Shown: piece after piece, positions 2,824 to 27,037 of the stretch | Numbering within the stretch: position 1 is the stretch's first letter | How the letters are laid out: the number at the start of each line of letters is the position of its first letter | Source: a virus | Virus record (IMG/VR): IMGVR_UViG_3300010299_000048 | Span: 1-27,037 of that record | Direction: 5' to 3' (one strand) | Length of the DNA: 27,037 bases | Notes under the pieces: model-generated | Told to the model about the DNA's origin: nothing | Seen by the model: the letters and a program-made list of their open reading frames with translations, nothing else | Databases searched by the model: none | Program-made: the position numbers and the translations under genes

Positions 2824-3258
2824 ATGACAGAAGAAGTAAAAAAACAACCAGTATCACTGAAGAGTTTATTAACTCCAAGCAAGACAGTATCAATCGACTT
2901 TCCAGGATTTGAAGGATTCACTGTTGATTTGACTTACCTAAGTCGAGAAGAGTTACTAAAACTCAGAAGCAGATGCTTAAAAAACAAGTTTAACAAGAAG
3001 ACTAGAGCATTTGAAGAACAACTCGATGAAGAAACATTCTTAACCGAATATTGTAAGGCAATCATCAAAGGTTGGAAAGGGCTAAAGTATTCTTACTTAG
3101 AAGAGCTTCTATTAGTAGATACAAGCGGAGTAGCCAAAGATGAAGAACTTGAGTATTCTCAAGAAAATGCTGAAACTCTAATGAGAAATGCAGCAGACTT
3201 CGATCAATGGGTTACTGATACTGTAGGAGATCTGGATAATTTTACTCAGCGCAAGTAG
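2824..3258 (+). CDS. Tail assembly chaperone, short form (lambda gpG-like)
   Basis: A 144-residue protein with a ribosome-binding site (AGGA, 2815-2818). It contains FPGFEGFTVDLTYLSREEL, then a helical, charged body and the acidic C-terminus typical of the G part of tail chaperones. G proteins coat the tape measure and bring tube subunits to it during assembly, and are absent from the finished virion. It lies between the tube and tape measure genes, as in lambda, HK97 and most siphoviruses. Its stop codon (TAG, 3256-3258) lies inside a hairpin that probably promotes a -1 frameshift into the following frame. The family is recognised by position, size and the overlapping second frame more than by individual motifs. 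Confidence 0.75.
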   Translation: MTEEVKKQPVSLKSLLTPSKTVSIDFPGFEGFTVDLTYLSREELLKLRSRCLKNKFNKKTRAFEEQLDEETFLTEYCKAIIKGWKGLKYSYLEELLLVDTSGVAKDEELEYSQENAETLMRNAADFDQWVTDTVGDLDNFTQRK

Positions 3259-3274
3259 AACAAGTACTTGCGCT
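3240..3274 (+). promoter_or_regulatory. Probable programmed -1 frameshift signal
   Basis: A shift from the G frame to the T frame must occur between 3240 and 3258. The run TTTT (3240-3243) lets the Phe tRNA move from TTT (3241-3243) to TTT (3240-3242) with full pairing. Four bases later, AGCGCAAGTA (3248-3257) and TACTTGCGCT (3265-3274) form a perfect 10-bp stem with a 7-base loop, spanning the zero-frame stop codon. The slippage site is not the classic X-XXY-YYZ heptamer, because the preceding AAT codon would re-pair with TAA. So the stem and the frame geometry are the strong evidence, and the exact slip codon is inferred. Confidence 0.65.
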
Positions 3275-3635
3275 CATAAAAAGACATTTTCAAGATACAG
3301 GCATAGACCTTAATAAGTATCTTGCAATATGTGAGCAACTGAATCAAGAACCTGATCCAGATAAAATGCCTCTTACTATGGATAGATATCCAACAGAAGT
3401 ACAAGAGGCATTTTTTGTACATAACTTACTTTCGGATCGTTGGGATGGTATGAGTGGCTACTACATGGGTAAAGATTTATCCGCTCTCGGTACTATTTTA
3501 GATATCTGGGAGATAGAAGACAAAAGAACTTGTATCTATTTTTTAAAGCACATAGAGCATGCTCATCAAGAAATGATGAACGCAAAAGTAAAGGCTCGAC
3601 AAGACGCTGAAAAGCGTAAAGCGAAAGTAAAGTAA
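3240..3635 (+). CDS. Tail assembly chaperone, frameshifted T extension (gpGT-like)
   Basis: This frame is -1 relative to the G gene and opens right after a stop at 3237-3239, running to TAA at 3633-3635. It encodes FYSAQVEQVLALIKRHFQ at its start, well upstream of the first ATG (3366), which has no ribosome-binding site. The conserved-looking part is YPTEVQEAFFVHNLLSDRWD followed by GMSGYYMGKDLSAL and a Lys-rich helical tail. Read as a fusion, join(2824..3243,3243..3635) gives a protein of 270 residues. In lambda, the T domain of gpGT recruits tube subunits while G binds the tape measure. Alternative: a separately started 89-residue protein from 3366; I think this less likely because 126 bases of coding-like sequence would be left unused. 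Confidence 0.75.
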   Translation, partial: FYSAQVEQVLALIKRHFQDTGIDLNKYLAICEQLNQEPDPDKMPLTMDRYPTEVQEAFFVHNLLSDRWDGMSGYYMGKDLSALGTILDIWEIEDKRTCIYFLKHIEHAHQEMMNAKVKARQDAEKRKAKVK

Positions 3636-16200: not shown

Positions 16201-16910
16201 ATATTGATACATCAGGAAATGCTTTCTTCAAAGGAGACCTATCAGCTGCAACTGTAACAATAGGACAGATTGCGGAGTTCCCTAATACAGCCGCTATGAA
16301 CACTGCTACAAGTAGTGCAGCATCCGCAGCAAATAATGCAGCAAACTCAGCAAGTGATGCAGCAAACTCAGCAGCTGCAGCCCAAAGTACCGCAGACTCA
16401 AAAGTAACTCATGGCGCAGTTAATACTTCATCTACTATAGTAGGTGGTGGAGTAGGTGGATGGACAATTACTCAGTATCATTTAGCAGGTGGAGCTATAG
16501 TTGGAAACTATACAACAGGCACATCAACTTCAGGAAATGGAACTTATTTAACAACTGGAGGATTATTACTAGGGTCAGATGGATTTATTTCAGCAAATCA
16601 GTTCTATCTAGACACAAACGGTAATGCAGGGTTTAAAGGAACAATATCAATTGGGTCAATTACAACAGCAGGTGGAGCTACTTCAAGCTCAGTAAATAAT
16701 GTAGCAAACTCAGCAGCTAATGCAGCAAGTGACGCAGCTAATGCACATACTACGGCAAATAGTGCAAACAGTCAAGCAAACGGAACAGTTGCTTCTTCTC
16801 CAAATCAAACTGGAGGAGCTGTAGCAGGATGGTCAATTAATGCAAGTGCAATATCAAGCGCAAACATTGTAATTGATTCAACTAATCAAAGGATTTTAAT
16901 TTCAGACTAA
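10227..16910 (+). CDS. J: Tail tip attachment protein J (host specificity, lambda gpJ family), extended
   Basis: A 2227-residue protein; lambda J is 1132. The N-terminal hub matches the J family: YDAISEGPIEGLVNGPNSII near residue 20-40, then NNPVWVFMDLVSNPRYGLGK and GMLIWHNGQISLN. A fibronectin-III-like region lies at about 990-1090 (ITPLV-type strands, FRVRVRTVNTQGYTSEF). Collagen-like Gly-X-Y stretches occur near 1325, 1447, 1580 and 1708, separating Ser/Thr-rich beta domains; two of these look paralogous (ILSNEAHTL...SPYDSPSFR and VFTNESHAF...SPYTANSFR). Near 1800, ETFDGSVIVEGTLAANRLSA resembles the DUF1983-type end of J proteins. The C-terminal 300 residues have Ala-rich coils and three GG.V.GW modules. 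J hubs close the tail tip as a trimer, and the variable C-terminus binds the receptor. Confidence 0.93.
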   Translation: MAGNSRYNNFTKTTKHQTAVIYDAISEGPIEGLVNGPNSIIIDGNPAASQNVSTYYQMFRSPNASYVSTTRVITDIGGGNIFDNITTAQGERYASVIAGKKRATDCSTTAGSRIITTASAFFAADDIYDEGVPLNQFIRIEGAGVANGEYAGQIVQYINTTAVRVDSAPAQTVSSANVSIDLVDKVASYSGNTCTLTTGGGINTNPTAVLLSPPAVSAGEPLKYNFNNFGWAFRPGERDQSYLSAPSGVGSASSAHSINQALDQTDLRSIGQPTNSALGIDTDISPNRNGESGISRVASTGMNIADPGEIDFIRVTLNHAQMISRKENGRTGNGFAEYRIVFSYKTDSTDDFANNEKVIFGRSSLASSPASYHANTRVKSGSTGIIDTQTQSPFNSIFSFDISKYQPFTDYKIDIQRVSPINQKENSWQQTNQGSVVSIENIITDKLTYPYTAYAGVVVDAEDFEDIPERAYEIRGLRVKVPTNYFPLEEIHDSTGIRRAVASYTRNVTTGVDTGAEVDWDGNFRGDKKTFDGASPNYEAVYCNNPVWVFMDLVSNPRYGLGKYVDPDFDFTQIDKYTLYNLAKYCDELVPDGKGGTEPRFTCNLYIQKGQDALRLLKDLTTMIRGMLIWHNGQISLNSNREKGAIYTFGKSNVIDGTFEYAGTSKRFRTNEIKVTWNDPENRYKQAVEIVTDDNNIAETGRVVTKDLPALGCTSQGQAQRLGKWHLLTEKLEKEVVTFKTGINGGALVAGDVILIQDADNENVQFSGRISSATSSTTTVIETDRAISLNGTDNFDLHLIFPKGGAYIGQPRATINGSSYSVGDLILEHANGTAITTQASASQLKDDAGALVQVIWSEDQRIETKPISSYNSSNITVSSAFSEAPNSEVMYAITGQTAQGADVTGSAKEYIITRIKENTKDMTFEITAAEYDVDKFSEIDRGWVIPDIPDVMRPPKRTEVVPVPVNVSVAIVPDDEGGDNTDVESATTKYKALVQWIAPKSLRTDQDGNALDDVYEHLAGFDLEHDVPQSDKVKNNTGFIREAIRSRGQNNFSIRNVSTGDEFRVRVRTVNTQGYTSEFIQAKFTFSPEDMVVPTSNVIGAGINQVIARGGTLSTGMTINTSTGAVSFDSSTYTFQPPTGVPTVSITSGNTNFTDESFSSLANGQTGYLLFDYDGNLARGATRTDVLRSIVIASDNVAASNTSNVPYYFNFFQRLGQANNDLTQANGTFSLSQFSSNLTGTSTTFELDYQAGDVIILDDAGASRFWARVAHVESNTSMTIVNASDRDYSGANLFRQSLRFDRQKDSIIASVTNTAGTFSLVNFASGERGADGLPGANGADGAAGIDSRTVNLTIGDQAFTYSNTGSSPSPSSTTVTATALNTTGTVYYEFFLNDVSQANTTTNTYTYTPQASFSNMPDKIEVQIRDSGETAIKARDQLTTYGVKPGTNGTNGTNGTDGNDGADAITVILSNEAHTLPTTNAGVVTYTDSGTDILVYDGTTQVPYDDSSPYDSPSFRVSASGSNITVGSASTVSTYTRRFANHSSMTADNAKVTYTITVKNSDGNEFTFTKVQSLSKSIGGDDGAPGVDAYTVVFTNESHAFDANSSGTISDFTTFSSSPTVYKGSQAYTYDATSPYTANSFRYGTRTDVNVSSAVSASGVVSLNSNSAIGSGATLTGTVTIPIIDNNGGATVATKTLSFVKVNAGSIGTDGVRGSGIFTFEESTTTEISAAQAVNFAGTLNNASAVAVANAVIQSSSDGFLRPNDRVTVTDNSADSAGTRVYNGSAVSSAGSVTAANFSALVVETFDGSVIVEGTLAANRLSANTTFTNRANIANTIQLGTSGDNGKFVTANKTTFADGDLGVYFDGAGNVNIGQDSGNKFIKFYSANGTLAIGQSVQIGATAASDIEAEVGATAAASAAQNTANSKATLSEANTAANTNILSNGAKTGGSVGGWTIDSSAIYSGTKDTAGYTSGSGITFNSAGSIHANQFYIDTSGNAFFKGDLSAATVTIGQIAEFPNTAAMNTATSSAASAANNAANSASDAANSAAAAQSTADSKVTHGAVNTSSTIVGGGVGGWTITQYHLAGGAIVGNYTTGTSTSGNGTYLTTGGLLLGSDGFISANQFYLDTNGNAGFKGTISIGSITTAGGATSSSVNNVANSAANAASDAANAHTTANSANSQANGTVASSPNQTGGAVAGWSINASAISSANIVIDSTNQRILISD
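14562..14597 (+). repeat. 9-bp tandem repeat coding for collagen-like Gly-Thr-Asn
   Basis: GGAACAAAC occurs three times in a row (14562-14588), followed by a fourth variant GGAACAGAT. It codes for Gly-Thr-Asn triplets in a collagen-like linker of the J protein. Exact tandem copies suggest recent slippage and a linker length that could vary between relatives. Confidence 0.85.
16071..16910 (+). repeat. Three C-terminal GG.V.GW modules in J
   Basis: Modules begin at 16071 (GGSVGGWTIDSSAI), 16443 (GGGVGGWTITQYHL) and 16812 (GGAVAGWSINASAI), about 123-124 residues apart. The first two continue to a shared ending (ISANQFYLDTNGNAGFKGTI in the second, a close match in the first); the third is cut short by the stop codon. 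Each is preceded by an Ala/Asn/Ser-rich coil-like stretch. This is an inferred module duplication at the receptor-facing end. Confidence 0.75.
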
Positions 16911-17377
16911 TGGCAAATAGAGTAATAATAGGTAATATCGGAGGGGGTGATTTTGGACTCCAAGTATCTCAACCAGGAGATAATGTATTAAGTCCAACAG
17001 AGCCTTTAATTTTTGATTCAACTTCAGTAAGAAGTGGAATGACATATGCGGGAGGTAGTGCTGCTTCTACTACAGGAATAAACTGGTCTAGTACAAAAGG
17101 AACACTTGGGTATATACCTTTGTGTGTTTCAATGGATGATAAAAAAGGAACTATTGAAAGTTATAATAGTGGTTCAGAAGAAGAAAGGTATCAAGAAAGA
17201 GCAGGAATGCACGAAGTAACAACAACCAATATAAATCCAATAAAGTTTGAAGAGTCTGTAGATACCGTAACTGGCGGAGGTGCAGGAGTAAGCAGAACTG
17301 CAACTAATTTTAAGTTTATTGTACTACGCCTTCCCTGTCAGTATGGAAAAATGAACGACGCAAGTTTATGGACATAA
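16910..17377 (+). CDS. Small tail-associated protein, MANR paralogue 1
   Basis: A 155-residue protein of unknown function. It begins MANRVIIGNIGGGDFGLQVS, a block shared with the next two genes (MANR, hydrophobic residues, Gly, then FG, a hydrophobic pair, Ser, x, x, Gly and later a LIF/LVF/LAF strand with Asp or Asn). In the middle, KGTLGYIPLCVS matches SHSLGYVPLYVV of paralogue 3, so those two probably share a whole fold. No signal peptide, membrane segment or catalytic motif can be seen. The ATG overlaps the J stop (TAATG), so it is translationally linked to J. A tail-tip accessory or receptor-related role is inferred from position only. Confidence 0.75.
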   Translation: MANRVIIGNIGGGDFGLQVSQPGDNVLSPTEPLIFDSTSVRSGMTYAGGSAASTTGINWSSTKGTLGYIPLCVSMDDKKGTIESYNSGSEEERYQERAGMHEVTTTNINPIKFEESVDTVTGGGAGVSRTATNFKFIVLRLPCQYGKMNDASLWT

Positions 17378-17378
17378 A

Positions 17379-17831
17379 ATGGCTAATCGAATTATAATAG
17401 GAAAAAGTACAAATACAAATCTTGGACATACAGGAGGCAAGTTTGGTTTATATATTTCTCGAGAAGGAGATGATATAACAACTTGTACAAAAGATCAGCT
17501 TGTATTTAATACAGATAATGCTGGTGCTGTAGCAGGAGCAATTGATGTTGGGCAATTTCAAATAGTTCCTATCGCAGGTGGAACAAATGCTTCTACGAAT
17601 GTTACTGTTGCAAGTGGCTCTACAGCTACAATAAGTACAGAAGATTTAGGAACAGGAAATCTTTTATACACTGATTTTGAAGGAACATTTACTCCAACAG
17701 ATGATTTTGAACAAACACTAAATGGAAACTATACAGGAGCTACAAGTGGAACAATAAGTAATACAGGAGATACTTCTATAACTGCAACAGTATCAGTTAT
17801 AAAAGGTTTTTCAACGGCGGCACTTTTCTAA
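17379..17831 (+). CDS. Small tail-associated protein, MANR paralogue 2
   Basis: A 150-residue protein starting MANRIIIGKSTNTN, with an insertion before the shared GGKFGLYISREGDD and QLVFNT. After about residue 50 it departs from its neighbours: a Thr/Ser/Gly-rich beta region (NVTVASGSTATISTEDLGTG, then TDFEGTFTPTDDFEQTLNGN) ending in ATVSVIKGFSTAALF. It lacks the LGY(I/V)PL block of paralogues 1 and 3. The pattern is a common N-terminal block with an exchanged C-terminal domain. Function unknown; the shared N-terminus may be a docking part. It starts one base after the previous stop and ends in a TAATG overlap with paralogue 3. Confidence 0.75.
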   Translation: MANRIIIGKSTNTNLGHTGGKFGLYISREGDDITTCTKDQLVFNTDNAGAVAGAIDVGQFQIVPIAGGTNASTNVTVASGSTATISTEDLGTGNLLYTDFEGTFTPTDDFEQTLNGNYTGATSGTISNTGDTSITATVSVIKGFSTAALF

Positions 17832-18412
17832 TGGCAAATAGAGTACTAGTAGGTAAAAGAGGCACTTCAGATTTTGGTGTTTTCGTTTCGCAAAATGGAG
17901 TAGATGTTGCTAATACAAGTATTACAACTCCACTTGCTTTTGATTCTCGTGCTGTTCGTGGGTTAGTAATTCATGCAAAAGGAGAAGGGTCTCTTGCCCC
18001 ACATGCTACTAATGATGCATCAGGAGTTGATTATCCTACAAGTACTACAATAAGTCATAGTTTAGGATATGTACCTCTTTATGTAGTAAGATGGTGTTAT
18101 GCAAGTGATTTAACAAGTGGTGTTGCAAATAGAATGTATACACCAAGTTATGCAAGAAACAATAACTATGGCTATGATTTAATCGAAGAAGTAGAATCTA
18201 CATGGGACGAAATATCTCTAATGGGAATATCTACAACAATGAGCACTACTCAACTTACTATTTATAATCACGAGTTTGGGTATAATGTCGAAGTTGGTGA
18301 TGATGAAGCAGGCACAGCACCAAATGAAGAGTTTGGTACAAATAAACAAACAATATATTACGCATATATAATTTTTAAAGCAAAAGATTTTACAGGAGGA
18401 TTAGGGCTATGA
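17831..18412 (+). CDS. Small tail-associated protein, MANR paralogue 3
   Basis: A 193-residue protein starting MANRVLVGKRGTSDFGVFVS, close to paralogue 1 both in protein and at the DNA level (the stop/start junction reads CTAATGGCAAATAGAGTA at both genes). SHSLGYVPLYVVRWCYASD corresponds to the LGYIPL block of paralogue 1, and both end with a hydrophobic strand (YYAYIIFKAKDF here, FKFIVLRLPCQYG there). A central Tyr/Asn/Glu-rich segment is unique to this copy. Unknown function; structural tail or adsorption role inferred from neighbours. Its stop overlaps the next ATG (ATGA). Confidence 0.75.
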   Translation: MANRVLVGKRGTSDFGVFVSQNGVDVANTSITTPLAFDSRAVRGLVIHAKGEGSLAPHATNDASGVDYPTSTTISHSLGYVPLYVVRWCYASDLTSGVANRMYTPSYARNNNYGYDLIEEVESTWDEISLMGISTTMSTTQLTIYNHEFGYNVEVGDDEAGTAPNEEFGTNKQTIYYAYIIFKAKDFTGGLGL

Positions 18413-18831: not shown

Positions 18832-19016
18832 ACATAGATTTAGAAACAGCAAATGCAAATTACTCTGATAAAAGACAAAAATATTATCCAACCTTAGGAA
18901 CTCAGCTTGATTTACTTTGGCACGCCATAGATGACGGAGTATTTGGGGATAATGCAAAATTAACCTCTTTTTATACAGAATTAAAAGCAGTCAAGGACAA
19001 ATATCCTAAATCGTAG
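18828..19016 (+). CDS. Small protein, possible fibre assembly helper
   Basis: A 62-residue protein with KRQKYYPTLGTQLDLLWHAI, then a helical C-terminus ending ELKAVKDKYPK. The pattern (R/K, YP.(I/L)G.QLD.L(W/F)H ... VK..YPK) is one I know from small proteins encoded beside phage fibre genes, some of which are called fibre assembly chaperones; that role is not proven here. Probably all-helical, soluble. It is the last gene before the intergenic promoter, and its ATG overlaps the preceding stop. Confidence 0.65.
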   Translation: MNIDLETANANYSDKRQKYYPTLGTQLDLLWHAIDDGVFGDNAKLTSFYTELKAVKDKYPKS

Positions 19017-19046
19017 GGTAAAGAAAACACCCCGCAAAAATAGTTC

Positions 19047-19075
19047 TTGACACCACCTCAAGTTTTTGATATAAT
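19047..19075 (+). promoter_or_regulatory. Consensus sigma70-type promoter for the fibre gene unit
   Basis: TTGACA (19047-19052), a spacer of exactly 17 bases, and TATAAT (19070-19075), with TGA directly before the -10 box, which adds the extended -10 element. All twelve hexamer bases match the bacterial consensus. It lies in an 80-base gap (19017-19096), the longest non-coding stretch of the window. Transcription would start near 19082, leaving a leader of about 15 bases that holds the ribosome-binding site AGGAG (19086-19090) before the ATG at 19097. No operator-like inverted repeat is obvious around it. Confidence 0.85.
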
Positions 19076-19096
19076 TATTGCATATAGGAGTATTTT

Positions 19097-19435
19097 ATGG
19101 CAGCTGGAAATTATGACATAGTTATCGATCAGGGCGCAGATTTTGCCCTTTCAATTACTATTGCAGAAGACGGTGAGACAACTAATTTATCTAGTCACAC
19201 AGCTTCAGCGCAACTTCGACCAACTCCCTCCTCAAATACTCTTACAGCAACATTTACCTGTACAATAACAGATGCTGCAAATGGTGCATTGTCAATGAAA
19301 CTTGGACATGCAGTAACAGCAAATATTGACGCAGGAAAATATTATTATGATTTAGAACTATACAATTCTAGTGCAAATACTATAACTAGACTGATACAGG
19401 GTGTAGCAAGAGTTACACAAAATGTGACACGCTAA
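19097..19435 (+). CDS. Small structural protein, beta-sandwich type
   Basis: A 112-residue protein, the first gene after the promoter, with a good ribosome-binding site. NYDIVIDQGADFALSITIAE, then NLSSHTASAQLRPTPSS, and a C-terminal YYYDLELYNSSANTITRLIQ followed by GVARVTQNVTR make a pattern that I know from many small phage proteins encoded among fibre and baseplate genes; it resembles the N-terminal domain of BppU-like baseplate proteins, which ties fibres to the tail. The function here is inferred from that resemblance and from the neighbours. The stop overlaps the next ATG (TAATG). Confidence 0.7.
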   Translation: MAAGNYDIVIDQGADFALSITIAEDGETTNLSSHTASAQLRPTPSSNTLTATFTCTITDAANGALSMKLGHAVTANIDAGKYYYDLELYNSSANTITRLIQGVARVTQNVTR

Positions 19436-19812
19436 TGGCAACAACGATAACTATTACTCCTACTAATACAACCCTTAATGCCACTGCACAGACTACAACT
19501 CTAACAATCTCTTCCGCTGTCGGAGGAGATGTATCAGACGCATCAATATTAACTTTTACAAATCCTGTAGGTACTCTTACAGGTCAAAGCACAGTAGAAG
19601 GTGCGCTTAATTTTCTAGCAAATCAATTTTATGTTGCAACAACAGCTCCAACTGCGGGTACAACAGACTTAGCAGAAGGAGATTTATTTTATGATACTGA
19701 TGATAATCAGTTAAAAGTTTATCGAGATGTCAATGGAACAGCGACATTTGTTCCGATAATGATCGGGAACGATTCAGCAGACTCAGACACGATAGACGCA
19801 GGAGCTTTTTAA
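19435..19812 (+). CDS. Small fibre-like protein
   Basis: A 125-residue protein. The N-terminal half is Thr-rich beta (ITITPTNTTLNATAQTTTLT). The C-terminal half has FYVATTAPTAGTTDLAEGDL followed by FYDTDDNQLKVYRDVNGTATF, a block common in phage fibre proteins, where a short Gly-Asp-Leu-(F/Y)-(Y/F) turn is followed by a Lys-Val-Tyr strand. It ends ADSDTIDAGAF, similar to the end of the next protein (TNTLDGGTF), so both may share a terminal element. Likely a short fibre or fibre adaptor; no enzymatic motif seen. Confidence 0.65.
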   Translation: MATTITITPTNTTLNATAQTTTLTISSAVGGDVSDASILTFTNPVGTLTGQSTVEGALNFLANQFYVATTAPTAGTTDLAEGDLFYDTDDNQLKVYRDVNGTATFVPIMIGNDSADSDTIDAGAF

Positions 19813-19832
19813 TAGCTCGATAGGAAATAATC

Positions 19833-21413
19833 ATGGCACAAACGATTAAAATTAAAAGAAGTAGCAGTTCCGCCTCTCCAACTTCACTAAGTGCTGGTGA
19901 ATTAGCGTATTCTTCTAATTCGCAGAAGCTATTTATTGGAGCTCCAACTGATGGAACAGTTACAACTATAGGTGGTGACTTATATGTCGCTATGTTGGAT
20001 CACACTGCTGGTACACTTACCGCAAGTTCTGCAGTTATTGTAGATTCACAAAGTAAAGTTGACCAACTAAAAACTGGTAATATAGTTTTAACTGGGTCTA
20101 CAGATACTATTTCTACATCATCAGGTGATTTAAATATCGCACCAACTGCAAACTTAGTGATTACACATGGAGGCAGTATAGATGTAGATGCACAAGCCAC
20201 AGATTTATTAATTGCTGACAATGAAGCAGCATCTTTTGTAATTAAGGAAGGCACAACCCCTTATTTAACATTCATTACAACTAACGGCTCAGAATCCATT
20301 AATGTGGGTACTATGTCTCTAAATACAGGCGGATCTTTAGAGGTAACAAGTACAGCAAATATTGGAAGTAATTTAGGAGTTGTTGGAAATATTACTGTAA
20401 ACACAAATAAGTTTACAGTATCATCAGGAGAAGGTAATACTAGCATTTCAGGTACATTAGGCGTAACTAATGCTGCAACTTTCTCATCTACCGTAGGTAT
20501 AACAGGAGCATTAACAGCAAATGGTGCTGTAACTTTAGGAGATGCTTCCACAGACACAATAAATATCAGAGGTAATGCCCAATTCGGGAATACAGTTGAT
20601 TTCAACGCAGGATTTAATGTCGCTTCAACTAATACCATTGATATGGGTGGTAATAGAGTACGAAATATAGGTACTCCTACCCAAGCAACAGACGCAACAA
20701 CAAAAGCATATGTAGATAGTGTAAAACAAGCACTAGATATTAAAGATTCAGTTAAAGTAGCAACTACTGCTAGTTTATCCGCAACTTATGACAATGGTAC
20801 ATTAGGCGTAGGTGCAACTCTTACAGCTGATTCAAATGGTGCAATCTCAGTTGATAATGTTTTATTATCTTCAGGAGACAGAGTACTTGTTAAAGATCAA
20901 TCAACATCAACTCAAAACGGTATTTACTCTGTAACAACCGTTGGTGACGTAAGTACCGCATTTGTACTTACTAGAACAGACGATGCTAATTCAAGTGCAG
21001 ATGTAAGTGGCGGATTATTTACATTCGTTGAAGCTGGGGATACTAATGCTGATAATGGTTTTGTATTAACAAATATTACAGGATCAGCTTCTCTTGGCAG
21101 TGACGGTCTTACATTTACACAATTCTCAGGTGCTGGACAAATTACAGCAGGAGACGCTTTATCTGCAACAGGTAACACACTAGATGTAAATGTAGATGAT
21201 TTAACAATTGAAGTTAACTCAGATCAGCTCAGAATTAAAGGTATCGGCTCAGTTTCAGAAGGCGATTTAATTTTTGGAGCAAATGGCGGTGGCTCTTATA
21301 CTAGATTAGCTATCGGAGCATATGACTCAACTAACTCAGTAGGACAAGTACTACAAGTTGGCAATAACGGAACAATAACTTGGACAAATACATTAGACGG
21401 AGGCACATTCTAA
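19833..21413 (+). CDS. Tail fibre protein
   Basis: A 526-residue protein with ribosome-binding site AGGA. Residues 1-45 (MAQTIKIKRSSSSASPTSLS, then AGELAYSSNSQKLFIG) form the N-terminal block widely found on marine phage fibres. Residues about 60-270 are Ser/Thr/Gly-rich repeats of fibre shaft type (GTLGVTNAATFSS, GITGALTANGAVTLG). At about 273-294, RVRNIGTPTQATDATTKAYV is the classic phage fibre motif also found in lambda Stf and T4 gp12. Residues about 295-425 form a beta domain with LLSSGDRVLVKDQSTSTQNG. The C-terminus ends with VLQVGNNGTITWTNTLDGGT. Probably trimeric and used for host attachment. Confidence 0.85.
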   Translation: MAQTIKIKRSSSSASPTSLSAGELAYSSNSQKLFIGAPTDGTVTTIGGDLYVAMLDHTAGTLTASSAVIVDSQSKVDQLKTGNIVLTGSTDTISTSSGDLNIAPTANLVITHGGSIDVDAQATDLLIADNEAASFVIKEGTTPYLTFITTNGSESINVGTMSLNTGGSLEVTSTANIGSNLGVVGNITVNTNKFTVSSGEGNTSISGTLGVTNAATFSSTVGITGALTANGAVTLGDASTDTINIRGNAQFGNTVDFNAGFNVASTNTIDMGGNRVRNIGTPTQATDATTKAYVDSVKQALDIKDSVKVATTASLSATYDNGTLGVGATLTADSNGAISVDNVLLSSGDRVLVKDQSTSTQNGIYSVTTVGDVSTAFVLTRTDDANSSADVSGGLFTFVEAGDTNADNGFVLTNITGSASLGSDGLTFTQFSGAGQITAGDALSATGNTLDVNVDDLTIEVNSDQLRIKGIGSVSEGDLIFGANGGGSYTRLAIGAYDSTNSVGQVLQVGNNGTITWTNTLDGGTF

Positions 21414-21414
21414 T

Positions 21415-21618
21415 ATGGCACATGTGATTAAACCAAAAAGGTCAGAAACTGTTGGTTCAGTACCAGCAGCTGAAGATTTGCAAACACATGAAATCGCTAT
21501 GAATGTAGCAGACGGAAAGATTTTTACAAAAGCAGCAAATGGTAGTATAGTAGAAGTTGGCTCTACTGGAGGACAGACTGAAGAAGATGTACTAGCACTT
21601 GCCATCGCACTAGGATAA
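21415..21618 (+). CDS. Stand-alone fibre N-terminal domain protein
   Basis: A 67-residue protein starting MAHVIKPKRSETVGSVPAAE, then HEIAMNVADGKIFTKAANGS and IVEVGS. This matches, piece by piece, the first 45 residues of the fibre encoded just upstream (IKIKRS, LSAGELAYSS, KLFIG, VTTIGG), followed by a short acidic helix. It looks like the docking or adaptor domain of a fibre without a shaft. It may cap or link fibres, or be the remnant or seed of a larger fibre gene. It is tightly spaced between neighbours, so it is probably expressed. Confidence 0.65.
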   Translation: MAHVIKPKRSETVGSVPAAEDLQTHEIAMNVADGKIFTKAANGSIVEVGSTGGQTEEDVLALAIALG

Positions 21619-21622
21619 TAAT

Positions 21623-21955
21623 ATGGCATCATCATTTAAAACAGCAACTTTACCAAATGCAAATCTATCTTTGCAGACGGTTTATACTTGCCCAAGTGCT
21701 ACCACTTCAACAATAATTGGATTATATTTATGTAATCAAAGTGGTGGTTCAGTAGAGGCAAATGTAGAGTTTTATGACAGTAGCACTGGAAATCATGTAG
21801 GGTTAACTTCAAGAACTCCTATACCAAGTGGAACAACAATAGCTGTGGTTGGTGGCGATGCCAAAGTAGTATTAGAGGCTGGCGATGCAATCAAGGTACA
21901 GAGTAATGTAGTCGATAGTATCGATGTGACTCTGTCATATTTGGAGCAAATATAA
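21623..21955 (+). CDS. Small beta-rich structural protein
   Basis: A 110-residue protein. Strand-type segments alternate with Gly/Asp turns: TIIGLYLCNQSGGSVEANVE, FYDSSTGNHVGLTSRTPIP, VVGGDAKVVLEAGDAIKVQS and SIDVTLSYLEQI. The end, with an AGDAIKVQS turn followed by a VTLSYLE strand, is a pattern I know from small virion proteins of marine phages, but no function is assigned. Its stop overlaps the ATG of the giant repeat protein (TAATG), suggesting coupled synthesis and possibly physical association. Confidence 0.65.
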   Translation: MASSFKTATLPNANLSLQTVYTCPSATTSTIIGLYLCNQSGGSVEANVEFYDSSTGNHVGLTSRTPIPSGTTIAVVGGDAKVVLEAGDAIKVQSNVVDSIDVTLSYLEQI

Positions 21956-24900
21956 TGGCATTAATAGGTAAGGAAAACCATCTAGTCTCCGTCTTGGAGG
22001 CAAACGCAGTTGGGACTACTGAATTAGTAAGTAATTCTGTTACTGCAAGTGAAATAGCAGCAAATGCTGTTGGTAGTTCAGAAATTGCCGCAAATGCTGT
22101 TACGAATACACAACTAGCAACCAACTCAGTTGGTACAGCACAGTTACAAGCATCTGCTATTACAGCAGTAGCAGATAACTCAATAGATTCAGCAGCTATA
22201 GCTGCAAACTCAGTTGATTCCAGTGAATTAGTAAGCGGATCAATTGATACAATTCATATCGGTTCAGGACAAGTTACAACAGCGAAGATAGCAGCAAACG
22301 CAGTCACTTCAGCTGAAATAGCTTCTAACTCAATTGGTAGTACAGAAATAGCAGCAAATGCAGTTGGTGCTTCAGAATTAGCACAAAACTCTATCGGAGT
22401 TATACACATTCCAGATGGATTAATTACTGCTACACAATTAGCTGCAAACTCAGTAGATTCAGCAGAACTTGTGAGTGGTAGTATAGATACTATTCATATT
22501 GGAGACTTACAAGTAACAACAGGAAAACTAGCTGCTGATGTAGTAGATGGTACAAAAATTGCAGATGACTCTATAGATTCAGAACATATAGCGGCAGGAG
22601 CAATTGATACAGAACATTTAGGAGCTGCCCAAGTAACAGGCGCTAAAATAGCTGCGAATACTATCGCAACAGGAAATGTAGCAGATAATGCAATAGACGG
22701 AACAAAAATAGCTACAGATAGTATTCAAGCAAGACATATAGGAACAGCTGCAGTAGGTGCGGATGAACTCGCATCAAACTCAGTAGATAGTGCAGAATTA
22801 GTAAGTGGTTCAATAGATACAATACACTTAGCAACTGATTCTGTAACAGCAGATAAAATAGCTGCAAACTCAGTAGATTCTGCAGAACTTGTTAGTGGTA
22901 GTATTGATACAATACATATAGGTACAGCACAAGTTACAACAGCAAAAATAGCCGATAATGCTATTACAGCAATTAAACTTACTTCTGGAATAGTATCTTC
23001 AGAACATATTGTAGACGGTACTATAGTATCGACAGATATAGCAGCCAATACTATTGCTACAGGAAACATAGCAGACAATGCTGTAGATGGTACAAAAATA
23101 GCTACTGACAGTATAGTTGCAAGACACATAGCAGCAAACTCAGTAGATTCAGCAGAGTTAGTGACAGGTAGTATCGATACAATACATATAGGTGCGGCAC
23201 AAGTTACAACAGCAAAAATAGCCGATAATGCTATTACAGCAAGTAAACTTCCTTCAGGAGTAATCTCTTCAGACCATATTGCAGACGGTACTATTGTTTC
23301 AGGAGATATAGCAGCAAATACTATTGCAACAGGAAATATTGCAGATAATGCTATCGATGGCACTAAAATCGCTAGTAACTCTGTAATTTCAAGACATATA
23401 GCAGAAAACACAATTACATCTTCAGAAATAGCAACTGGTGCAGTAGGTGCATTACAAATAGCTGCAAACTCTGTAGATAGTTCAGAATTAGTAAGTGGTA
23501 GTATAGATACTATACATATTGGAACTTCTCAAGTAACAACAGCAAAAATAGCAGCAAATAATATTACTTCTGCAAAAATTGCAACAGACCAAGTTTTATC
23601 TAGACACATAGCTGCTGGAGCAGTAGATTCTAGTGAACTAGCTGCGAACTCTGTCGGAGTAACTGAACTATCAAGTGCAGCACTTGGGGGACAAACATTC
23701 ACAGGTAATGTAACATTATCTGGTAACTTAACAGTAAACGGAACAACCACAACAGTTAATTCAACAACCACAACAATTGCTGATCCATTAATGGAACTTG
23801 GTACAGGAACAACAGGTACTCCATCAAATGATGCAGGTATCGTCATAGAAAGAGGCGACGAAAATAATGCATTTATTGGATTTGACGAGAGTGTAGATAA
23901 GTTTAAAGTAGGTACAGGTACATTTACTGGTGCTTCTACTGGCGACTTAGTAATGACAACAGGAACTATTCTAGCTAATATTGAAGGAAACGTTACTGGT
24001 AATTTAACAGGTAATGCTGATACAGCAACAACTTTAGCAACAAATAGAGCTTTCTCTTTAACAGGAGATGTAACTGCTTCAGCTGTAAACTTTAACGGAT
24101 CAGGTGCAGTTGCTTTATCAACAACTTTAGCAGCAAATACTGTAGATAGTGCAGAATTAGTAAGTGGTAGCATAGATGCAATTCACTTAGCTTCTGACTC
24201 TGTAACAAGTGCTAAAATAGCAGACAATGCTATTAATAGTGTAAACTTTATTTCAAGCGGTTTAATTACATCAGACTTGATAGCAGATGGAACTATTGCA
24301 GCAGGTGATTTAGCAGCAAACTCAGTGGACTCCAGTGAAATAGTAAGTGGGTCTATTGACGCAATTCATATAGCAGACAATGCAGTAATAGGAAGTAAAA
24401 TAGCAACAGACTCTGTAGGAAGCGATCAAATAGCTGATAGTAGCATAGGTGCAAATCACTTAGCTTCTGACTCTGTAACAAGTGCAAAAATAGCAGATAA
24501 CGCTATTAATAGTGTAGCATTTATATCAAGCGGTCTAATTACATCAGACTTGATAGCAGACGGAGCAATTGTAGCAGGAGACTTAGCAGCAAACTCAGTA
24601 GATAGTGCAGAACTAGTTACAGGTAGTATAGATACTATACACTTAGCAACTAATTCTGTAACAGCAGATAAAATAGCAGCAAACTCAATAGATTCAAGCG
24701 AACTTGTTACTGGTAGTATAGATACTATACATATTGCAGATAATGCAGTTACAGCAAATAAAATAGCAATAGACTCTGTAGGAAGCGATCAAATTGCGGC
24801 AAACGCAGTCACAGCTTCTGAACTAGCAGGAAACTCTGTAACAGCAGTACAAATAGCAATAGGAGCAGTTGGTTCATCAGAACTTGCAGCTAATTCAGTA

Positions 24901-25779
24901 GACTCTAGTGAATTAGTAAGTGGTAGTATAGATACTATACACATTGCAAATAATGCGGTTACTGGAGCAAAAATTGCTCTTAATACTATTACAGCAAGTG
25001 AAATTGCAACAGATGCAGTTACTTCTGTACATATTGCAGATAACGCTATTAATAGTGTAAACTTTATTTCAAGTGGATTAATCACAGCAGACTTATTAGC
25101 AGCTAACTCAGTAGATTCATCAGAATTAGTAAGTGGTAGTATAGATACTATACACTTAGGAAATCTACAAGTTACAACAGCTAAAATAGCTGATCTTAAT
25201 GTAACAAATGGAAAACTAGGAGCTAACTCTGTAACAGCAGCTAAAATAGCAGCAAACGCTGTTGGGTCAAGTGAGATTGCAAATAACTCTGTAACTACTA
25301 CACAACTATCAAGTGGTGCTTTAGATGGCAAAACTATGACAGCAACTACTGGAGTAGTTATAGGTGCAACAACTCTTGGTTCAGGTGCAGTAAATGTAAA
25401 TGGAAACTTTGGAGTACAAGACAGTAATCCACCACAAAAACTTCACATAGATGAAGTAGCTGGTATGGATGTAGGCACAGGAAGTTCATCTTCAGTAACT
25501 GAGTTTACTTTAGATTCTTTTGCAACAGCTACATTTAGAGCAGCTAAATATATAGTACAAGTTACAAATACTACAGATAGTGATTATCAAGTGTTAGAAA
25601 TATTATTATTCCATGATGGAACAACCGCATATTTAACACAATACGCTTCTATATTTGACAATGGTGCACAGGCAACATTCGATGCAGATGTAAGTGCAGG
25701 TAATGTAAGATTAAGAGTAACTCCAGGATCAACTGATACAATCAGTTACAAGTTTATTAGAACAACAATAGAGGTATAA
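21955..25779 (+). CDS. Giant decapeptide-repeat tail fibre protein
   Basis: A 1274-residue protein built mainly of 10-residue repeats with Ile or Leu at every tenth position from residue 14 (SEIAANAVGS, TEIAANAVGA, AKIADNAITA). One block runs from about residue 14 to 575 and a second from about 725 to 1125, some 95 repeats in all. Such repeats are likely to wind into a beta-helical or triple-stranded shaft. Between them lies a different domain (FTGNVTLSGNLTVNGTTTT, then DPLMELGTGTTGTPSNDAGI) of a type common in marine phage fibres. The last 150 residues form a distinct C-terminal domain (FRAAKYIVQVTNTTDSDYQV, LEILLFHDGTTAYLTQYASI), a likely receptor-binding or trimerisation head. Confidence 0.88.
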   Translation: MALIGKENHLVSVLEANAVGTTELVSNSVTASEIAANAVGSSEIAANAVTNTQLATNSVGTAQLQASAITAVADNSIDSAAIAANSVDSSELVSGSIDTIHIGSGQVTTAKIAANAVTSAEIASNSIGSTEIAANAVGASELAQNSIGVIHIPDGLITATQLAANSVDSAELVSGSIDTIHIGDLQVTTGKLAADVVDGTKIADDSIDSEHIAAGAIDTEHLGAAQVTGAKIAANTIATGNVADNAIDGTKIATDSIQARHIGTAAVGADELASNSVDSAELVSGSIDTIHLATDSVTADKIAANSVDSAELVSGSIDTIHIGTAQVTTAKIADNAITAIKLTSGIVSSEHIVDGTIVSTDIAANTIATGNIADNAVDGTKIATDSIVARHIAANSVDSAELVTGSIDTIHIGAAQVTTAKIADNAITASKLPSGVISSDHIADGTIVSGDIAANTIATGNIADNAIDGTKIASNSVISRHIAENTITSSEIATGAVGALQIAANSVDSSELVSGSIDTIHIGTSQVTTAKIAANNITSAKIATDQVLSRHIAAGAVDSSELAANSVGVTELSSAALGGQTFTGNVTLSGNLTVNGTTTTVNSTTTTIADPLMELGTGTTGTPSNDAGIVIERGDENNAFIGFDESVDKFKVGTGTFTGASTGDLVMTTGTILANIEGNVTGNLTGNADTATTLATNRAFSLTGDVTASAVNFNGSGAVALSTTLAANTVDSAELVSGSIDAIHLASDSVTSAKIADNAINSVNFISSGLITSDLIADGTIAAGDLAANSVDSSEIVSGSIDAIHIADNAVIGSKIATDSVGSDQIADSSIGANHLASDSVTSAKIADNAINSVAFISSGLITSDLIADGAIVAGDLAANSVDSAELVTGSIDTIHLATNSVTADKIAANSIDSSELVTGSIDTIHIADNAVTANKIAIDSVGSDQIAANAVTASELAGNSVTAVQIAIGAVGSSELAANSVDSSELVSGSIDTIHIANNAVTGAKIALNTITASEIATDAVTSVHIADNAINSVNFISSGLITADLLAANSVDSSELVSGSIDTIHLGNLQVTTAKIADLNVTNGKLGANSVTAAKIAANAVGSSEIANNSVTTTQLSSGALDGKTMTATTGVVIGATTLGSGAVNVNGNFGVQDSNPPQKLHIDEVAGMDVGTGSSSSVTEFTLDSFATATFRAAKYIVQVTNTTDSDYQVLEILLFHDGTTAYLTQYASIFDNGAQATFDADVSAGNVRLRVTPGSTDTISYKFIRTTIEV
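21994..23688 (+). repeat. Decapeptide (30-bp) repeat block A
   Basis: About 55 units of 30 bases encoding (S/T)-x-(E/K)-(I/L)-A-x-N-(A/S)-(V/I)-x. Within it, 22861-23130 and 23131-23400 are a direct duplication of nine decapeptides at exactly 270 bases spacing, with a 46-base identical run (22927-22972 and 23197-23242), showing growth of the array by tandem duplication. Confidence 0.88.
24127..25331 (+). repeat. Decapeptide (30-bp) repeat block B
   Basis: About 40 further units in the same gene. The segments starting at 24184 and 24457 are near-copies offset by 273 bases (91 residues), because each contains one 11-residue unit (IADNAINSVNF or IADNAINSVAF) that shifts the register by one residue, possibly a beta bulge. 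Confidence 0.85.
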
Positions 25780-25780
25780 T

Positions 25781-26005
25781 ATGGGACAGAAACTAAACTT
25801 TAACATCGAAGATGCAGGATTTAGTGTTGATGGAAGTGAGAAGTTTGATGCCGCAGGTGAAGCTGCAGCTATCAGTATTTCGGCAGATAAAATAACAAGT
25901 GGAACAATTTCTTCCACAAGATTGCCATACACTATCACTACTACCGCGCCAGTAAGCGTAGGCAGCACTAGCAGTGGTCATATATGGTTTGTTTATTCGG
26001 CATAA
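25781..26005 (+). CDS. Small fibre-cluster protein
   Basis: A 74-residue protein one base after the giant fibre gene's stop. The N-terminal half (MGQKLNFNIEDAGFSVDG) is followed by a Ser/Thr-rich part with SADKITSGTISSTRLPYTIT, which resembles a single decapeptide-type unit, and the ending GSTSSGHIWFVYSA. A Gly-x-Ile-Trp-(F/Y)-Val-Tyr ending is one I have seen in small proteins of marine phage fibre clusters. It could be a fibre tip or adaptor. Function unknown. Confidence 0.6.
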   Translation: MGQKLNFNIEDAGFSVDGSEKFDAAGEAAAISISADKITSGTISSTRLPYTITTTAPVSVGSTSSGHIWFVYSA

Positions 26006-26008
26006 GAT

Positions 26009-27037
26009 ATGGCAATATATATCAATGACAGCGGAACACTTCGTAATATCGACTTTCTTGCTATTAATGATAGCGGAACACTTCGTCGTATTAATGAAGT
26101 ATACGTAAATGACAATGGCTCATTGGCTGGGCCATTTGAAATTGTTTATGTCACTGATAGAAATACTAATACTCAAACCACTTATATTTCTGGTACACAA
26201 GAAACTTCTTTTAATACAACAACAATTTTTAACACTACCAGAGATACTATCTCTACTTTCAACACTTCTAGAGTTTCAATATTCAATACAAGCAGAACTA
26301 CAGAAACAACTAGAGATACTGTTACAACATTTAATACTGTTAGAAGTACAGTTACAACTTTCTTAACTACAACTACATTTAATACAACAATTACAACAAC
26401 AACTGGTTTTGGAACAGTAACTACATTTAATACAACTCTTACAACTACAACAGAGTTTACAACCACAACAACTTTTGAGACAAGTAGAACAACAACATTT
26501 AATACAACTAGAGCAACTACTACTGCTTACGAGACAACTACATCTTACACAACTTTCTATGATACTATTATTGAAACATCTAGAAGTACAGGATTTACAA
26601 ATAATACAAATACAAGTGTATCAACTATAACTGCGTTTACTGCAAGTACAGCATTTACAAACCTTACAAATACAAGTGTATCAACTATAACTGCATTTAG
26701 TGCAAGTACAGGATTTACAAATGCTACAAATACAACTGTATCTACTATAAGCTCATTTACTGCAATTACAGGATTTACAAATGCTACAAATACAAGTGTA
26801 GCTACTGTAACTGCATTTGGTGCAAGTACAGGATTTACAAATGCTACAAATACAAGTGTAGCTACTGTAAGCTCATTTACTGCAAGTACAGGATTTACAG
26901 CTGCTACAAATACGAGTGTATCAACTATAACTGCATTTGGCGCTTCAACTTCGTTTGTAACTACATTCGCTGTAAATACAAACACAACTAAATCAACTAA
27001 TACAAGTATAGGAACTGTAACTGCATTTGGAGCAAAT
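26009..27037 (+). CDS. Thr/Asn-rich repeat protein, 3' partial, likely fibre or adhesin
   Basis: ATG at 26009 opens a frame with no stop to the window's end, giving 343 visible residues. The N-terminus has three near-copies of a 14-residue unit (NDSGTLR at residues 6 and 20, NDNGSL at 34). Residues about 60-190 are built of short Phe/Tyr-Asn-Thr-Thr units (FNTTRDT, FNTSRVS, FNTTRAT). From residue 193, six 20-residue repeats follow (STGFTNATNTSVSTITAFTA type). Thr, Ser, Asn, Phe and Ala make up most of it; there are almost no acidic residues or Lys. This suggests a fibrous, possibly beta-stacked shaft. The rest of the gene lies beyond the right edge. Family unknown to me by name. Confidence 0.75.
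   Translation, partial: MAIYINDSGTLRNIDFLAINDSGTLRRINEVYVNDNGSLAGPFEIVYVTDRNTNTQTTYISGTQETSFNTTTIFNTTRDTISTFNTSRVSIFNTSRTTETTRDTVTTFNTVRSTVTTFLTTTTFNTTITTTTGFGTVTTFNTTLTTTTEFTTTTTFETSRTTTFNTTRATTTAYETTTSYTTFYDTIIETSRSTGFTNNTNTSVSTITAFTASTAFTNLTNTSVSTITAFSASTGFTNATNTTVSTISSFTAITGFTNATNTSVATVTAFGASTGFTNATNTSVATVSSFTASTGFTAATNTSVSTITAFGASTSFVTTFAVNTNTTKSTNTSIGTVTAFGAN
26024..26125 (+). repeat. Three 42-bp direct repeats at the start of the Thr-rich gene
   Basis: Units start at 26024, 26066 and 26108, each coding for Asn-Asp-(Ser/Asn)-Gly-(Thr/Ser)-Leu followed by a strand. The first two share AGCGGAACACTTCGT. The third is diverged. Probably a small beta-stacked N-terminal domain. Confidence 0.8.
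26585..26944 (+). repeat. Six 60-bp tandem repeats in the Thr-rich gene
   Basis: Exact 60-base spacing at 26585, 26645, 26705, 26765, 26825 and 26885, each starting with the codons for Ser-Thr-(Gly/Ala)-Phe-Thr (one has Ile in place of Ser) and including ACAAATAC and a GCATTT/TCATTT near the end. A seventh, altered unit begins at 26945. Reading frame is kept throughout. Confidence 0.88.

Follow-up and report, generated by a model that had tools for sequence, protein, structure and literature searches.

The window analysed here is a stretch of viral DNA of 27,037 nucleotides (the whole of positions 1 to 27,037 of IMG/VR record IMGVR_UViG_3300010299_000048), and a promoter of bacterial type lies in it, within the 80-bp gap between the stop of a small gene at 19016 and the next ATG at 19097 (Table 1). 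Open reading frames (ORFs) 5ʹ of the promoter follow the gene order of a siphophage tail block. Among these, minor tail protein L is backed by a family search, and the labels gpM, L, K, I and J for the upstream ORFs of the window are otherwise presumed from gene order and from general knowledge of such blocks. Three adjacent ORFs located 3ʹ of the gpJ-like gene, at 16910–18412, all start MANR and resemble diverged copies of one another. On the other side of the promoter, the product of the first gene matches phrog_3304 (L-shaped tail fibre assembly) at 1.5e-16 and Pfam LtfC at 2.4e-5, with a score of 25.3 bits that is just below the curated cut-off of 27 bits; when the LtfC assignment was checked, 8 of 20 aligned members matched at 1e-3. 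The ORFs that follow this LtfC-like gene match tail fibre and decoration families.

Table 1. Coordinates of the fibre promoter and the genes around it (window numbering)
Feature	Position	Strand	Remarks
Gene 5ʹ of the promoter, 62 aa	18828–19016	+	One of three interchangeable families; this one in 22/64 loci
Upstream promoter box: A5 tract (19036–19040) and TAGTTC (19041–19046)	19036–19046	+	
−35 element TTGACA	19047–19052	+	Perfect in 59/64 relatives, TTGACT in the other 5
17-bp spacer with TTTTT (19062–19066) and TG of the extended −10 (19067–19068), ending in TGA	19053–19069	+	
−10 element TATAAT	19070–19075	+	In 64/64 relatives
Discriminator TATTGC, T at −6, putative late type	19076–19081	+	T at −6 in 63/64 fibre promoters
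Predicted start A (19082) and leader of ~15 bases	19082–19096	+	Start predicted from spacing to the −10 element
Shine-Dalgarno TAGGAG	19085–19090	+	Inside the leader; ATG at 19097
First operon gene, product of 112 aa (LtfC-like beta-sandwich protein)	19097–19435	+	phrog_3304, Pfam LtfC
Downstream fibre/virion genes, expected on the same transcript	19435..27037	+	ORFs; no second family promoter in the window
Individual downstream ORFs	19435–19812, 19833–21413, 21415–21618, 21623–21955, 21955–25779, 25781–26005, 26009–end	+	

The perfect TTGACA-17-TATAAT core with a TGn extended −10 that the first-pass annotation had described at 19047–19075 is confirmed on the letters of the window, and the site has the sequence elements of an extended −10 promoter of the sigma70 class (TTGACA, a spacer of 16–18 bp, TATAAT and TGn). 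It is the sole TTGACA-N15..19-TATAAT on either strand of the 27-kb window. A profile derived from relatives likewise has a single match in the window, with a score of 39.3, and none in the reversed window. The conserved element extends 5ʹ of the range 19047–19096 to which the promoter had been assigned and takes in the A5 tract and TAGTTC, which presumably sit where a proximal UP subsite would. The same annotation had called the intergenic space the longest non-coding gap; measured by ORF ends, its 80 bp are exceeded by a gap at about 3258–3366, in the tail-chaperone region. That longer gap is located between two small ORFs 5ʹ of the tape measure gene, a position in which the frameshifted tail chaperone of siphophages is often found.

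Judged by its sequence, the source of the window is a marine bacterial virus, a T5-like siphophage that is distant from phage T5 itself. The window ORFs map onto a 105-kb record (G008) whose identical ends measure only 77 bp, although long repeats may have been collapsed by assembly. Of the 139 ORFs of T5 with a length of at least 80 aa, 32 have a match in G008 and 30 in a second relative, G011, in the same order, and in both records replication genes are arranged relative to structural genes as they are in T5. Moreover, the terminase TerL of the relatives is 48% identical to that of Pectobacterium phage My1, and the major tail protein is ~32% identical to T5-like tube proteins. Two families that are found in T5, A1 (phrog_1745) and gpT5.026, have no match in any of six relatives (G008, G011, G016, G020, G007 and G017, some of which are fragments); gp026 homologues are said to occur in all T5-related phages in the available text of Klimuk and colleagues 2020 (PMC7472727). 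All six relatives have a match to the D5 family, but because this family also matches 11 of 14 control genomes, assignment of the D5-like protein rests on tblastn matches of 47–50%. With regard to the family Demerecviridae, the relatives have collinear T5 core genes, and the pre-early A1 was not found in them; the group is called T5-like here and is not placed in that family. Sigma-70 region 2 (PF04542) matches 10 of the 14 control genomes, none of the six relatives and nothing in T5, and on this ground transcription by a phage sigma factor was rejected. The phage-type RNA polymerase family (PF00940) has no match anywhere, controls included, so that search is uninformative.

Taken by itself, the window site is improbable yet possible by chance, since shuffled windows hold a mean of 0.06 such sites and 6 of 100 hold at least one. 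Evidence of function comes from the relatives. A protein search of viral contigs for the LtfC-like gene returned 80 loci, 64 of which match from the start codon. These loci were chosen by protein similarity alone, and all 64, which collapse to 24 distinct promoter-to-ATG blocks, carry TTGAC[AT]-17-TATAAT within 80 bp 5ʹ of the gene. The ATG is 19–26 bases past TATAAT in every one of them, and AAAATA occurs in the same register in 63. At a locus with 37% protein identity (L133), box and core are kept with a spacer of 18 bp. No family site lies within 500 bp upstream of the remaining 16 loci, which are remote or partial and do not match from the start codon, and a search of cultured phages at the DNA level gave no match. 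Related phages with the same gene order and no promoter, which the first-pass annotation had named as evidence against its reading, were not found within the lineage. Because the site is kept in 64 of 64 loci, the promoter is taken to be functional; a functionless match in AT-rich DNA, of the kind that shuffling now and then produces, is refuted by this conservation and can be given practically no weight.

The conserved block also has a sharp upstream edge. Column conservation across the fibre loci starts at the A-tract, and the genes found upstream fall into three families (30, 22 and 12 loci) that are mutually dissimilar at the cut-off used, so the promoter belongs with the downstream gene. 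The same two facts could be taken to mean that the block is kept mainly as a point of recombination for the fibre module, with transcription secondary. This reading is very improbable: the conserved positions are those of a promoter, with a fixed 17-bp spacing, and they recur before unrelated genes, and a role as a boundary is in any case compatible with a role as a promoter. A simple search for a stem followed by a T-run found no terminator-like hairpin 5ʹ of the promoter in any of the 64 loci. The idea that a terminator isolates the promoter was therefore dropped, and the fibre promoter would supplement read-through from upstream.

The fibre promoter is one member of a larger set. Four long relatives, 377 kb in total, were scanned for perfect hexamers at spacings from 8 to 27, which gave 58 sites at a spacer of 17, one at 18 and four at other spacings. 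Each of these four genomes has 13–16 perfect sites (spacer 16–18), and at least one perfect site is present in 21 of 24 records searched. A full consensus, which had been regarded as exceptional in such a region, is thus commonplace in this lineage. Additionally, a AAAATAGTTC box is found 5ʹ of the 58 perfect promoters, each of its positions being kept in 34–54 of them; together with the 58 perfect sites, this common box identifies the fibre promoter as part of a lineage-wide set of host type. At a profile score of at least 16, there are 75 matches in the real sequence vs none in the reversed sequence, for a profile trained on the same genomes. Strong sigma70 promoters also precede both early and late genes of T5, as far as the available text of Klimuk and colleagues goes (PMC7472727). 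One part of G008 (54.9–57.9 kb, L234) holds tandem and divergent promoters, with nine matches of at most one mismatch and few convincing ORFs, and looks like an early control region.

The exact box and core occur outside this lineage as well. A genome scan found them in 49 stretches, which include many from clostridia and some just 5ʹ of tRNA-like genes, so that strong housekeeping bacterial promoters with an A-tract share the box and core of the phage fibre promoter. Nine of the 49 stretches come from contigs that also encode relatives of G008 proteins, and these nine resemble phage DNA inside bins. Naming the host through the extended motif fails, since the other 40 stretches have no G008-like genes and are mostly clostridial. 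Five contigs from bacterial bins (L267, L285, L293, L295 and L304) carry at least five relatives of T5-like phage proteins each and are probably phage DNA that was binned with bacteria.

Within the set, the core is nearly constant and the discriminator varies with the class of gene. For this comparison, 73 profile hits from the four genomes were grouped by downstream gene, and manual sorting placed 12 of them before structural operons (fibre 4, head/portal 3, terminase operon 3, T5.156-like 2), a choice made after the discriminator letters had been seen. None of these 12 structural promoters has A at −6 (10 have T and 2 have C). Among the remaining 61, A is found at −6 in 57, the exceptions being three T, all from one leader group, and one G. 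Similarly, A at −6 is rare among distinct fibre promoters (1 of 21) and usual among early-strand promoters (45 of 48), and the TGn extended −10 is present in 64 of 64 fibre vs 13 of 48 early-strand promoters. Owing to common descent, the class counts do not represent independent events, since the late promoters fall in only four orthologous groups.

Scans with fixed-core patterns, which returned at least 120 stretches and at least 80 loci each and whose counts are thus samples, give the same picture. Among the matches listed, T is at −6 in 24 of 24 fibre promoters and in 72 of 72 head promoters, the latter obtained with a pattern that forces an 18-bp spacer and whose loci are mainly the head-operon promoter; the 17-bp pattern was scanned separately. 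Promoters of D11-region-like genes have 17 A and 8 G in 25 matches listed, and among the matches listed A is found before ligase B in 6 of 6, before primase in 1 of 1 and in 17 of 17 promoters with no G008-like gene nearby. A leader group before a non-structural gene of 126 aa has 5 T and 2 A among the 7 matches listed. In this group, a family promoter starts a conserved leader of ~80–95 bases (G008 63152–63275, corresponding to L235:3150–3275; L326 near 1681; L343 near 4004) in which a repeat resembling a hairpin (GTAAGTGA...TCACTTAC) is accompanied by a TTGGCG..ACCGAAAGG stretch. The leader has no Rfam match and is possibly a regulatory RNA.

One DNA letter beside the core thus appears, from these comparisons, to distinguish late from early genes, and the discriminator of the window promoter is unlike that of the early promoters. 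This bears on the proposal of the first-pass annotation that the fibre genes might be expressed early or constitutively. A perfect core could be used by the host polymerase as soon as the DNA enters, with fibre genes transcribed early or throughout; the fibre core is equal to or better than the early cores, and a strong host promoter in principle requires no phage factor. However, the fibre discriminator is of the structural-gene type, which contradicts early or constitutive use, and the strong sigma70 promoters that precede T5 late genes nonetheless act late, according to the available text of the same study (PMC7472727). Early or constitutive expression is therefore considered unlikely, though less so than a boundary role.

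Comparison with T5 supports a late class in kind, if not in letters. When the 46 annotated T5 promoters were read, leaving out two entries of odd length and two duplicates, most had an A-rich upstream stretch and most a 17-bp spacer. TTGCTT and TTGCTA were the prevailing −35 elements, and the 119 kb that were read contained a single perfect site. Two T5 late promoters, PG25 and PJ5, are located among structural genes, and the fibre promoter resembles them as a host-type promoter in a structural block with a 17-bp spacer and an upstream A-rich stretch. According to the available text of Klimuk and colleagues, the sigma70 polymerase serves pre-early, early and late genes of T5 alike; the main distinction between its early and late promoters is the discriminator, which is ATATT in the early ones, and the authors regard it as unknown how the switch from early to late is made with a single host sigma factor (PMC7472727). 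In T5, and probably in the marine lineage, the discriminator separates early from late promoters (for T5, as given in the same available text, PMC7472727). Our comparison agrees in kind with T5, in distant relatives in which gp026 was not detected. Unlike in T5, TTGACA is the rule in the marine lineage and the late discriminator letters differ: those of T5 break the rule of T at −6, as PG25 begins ATTG and PJ5 begins GTTA. Furthermore, because neither gpT5.026, which acts on the discriminator, nor A1 was found in the six relatives, the T5 mechanism is not simply transferable. A literature search on promoters of marine T5-like phages found no paper, which is weak evidence of absence.

The LtfC-like gene family is also found in phages with another regulatory system. 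None of its homologues in seven T4-like or other phages has a sigma70 site. In three of these seven records (L261, L262 and L264; Kyanoviridae), a TATAAATA box, which belongs to the T4 late sigma system, is located 26–33 bp 5ʹ of the LtfC-like start; the other four have neither type. A T4-type late promoter thus places its box close 5ʹ of the same gene family but has no −35 element. The window promoter is not of this type (TATAAATA without −35), since TTGACA and TATAATTA are present there. The T4-type box in three of seven homologues suggests that the LtfC-like operon benefits from having its own promoter under more than one type of regulation.

Altogether, the site most likely serves the tail-fibre operon of a marine T5-like siphophage as a late-class sigma70 promoter. 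From genome comparisons that display the core, its conservation, its family and the class difference, we infer the polymerase used, the start site, the timing and the strength. The host housekeeping (sigma70-type) polymerase would bind the TTGACA / TGn-TATAAT core, assisted by the A-tract box, and begin transcription at about 19082, so that the LtfC-like gene would be transcribed together with the fibre genes that follow, as a unit apart from the head-tail operon. The resulting transcript would add to read-through and not replace it. Of the earlier proposal that the fibre genes are separately transcribed by the host polymerase, the host-type promoter stands and the separate transcript is very probable, given conservation in 64 of 64 loci, the 17-bp spacer genome-wide and the absence of sigma-70 region 2 matches from six relatives; a very high level of expression is plausible.

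The whole phage would run on promoters with the same core, the late operons (fibre, head/portal and terminase) having T or C at −6 and the early promoters A or G. The fibre promoter is probably kept back until late infection by a phage factor that alters the use of the discriminator by the polymerase. Tentatively, and at somewhat less than even odds, the switch from early to late in the marine lineage may be written in the discriminator and read through a factor other than gp026, for which the D5-like protein is the first candidate. The fibre promoter itself is ordinary in kind for T5-like phages, and its interest is in the difference in letter between classes. The useful part is the set: tens of near-identical cores, with a discriminator that varies by gene class, in phages where gp026 was not found. 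This class difference amounts to a simple prediction at the level of single letters, testable in vitro.
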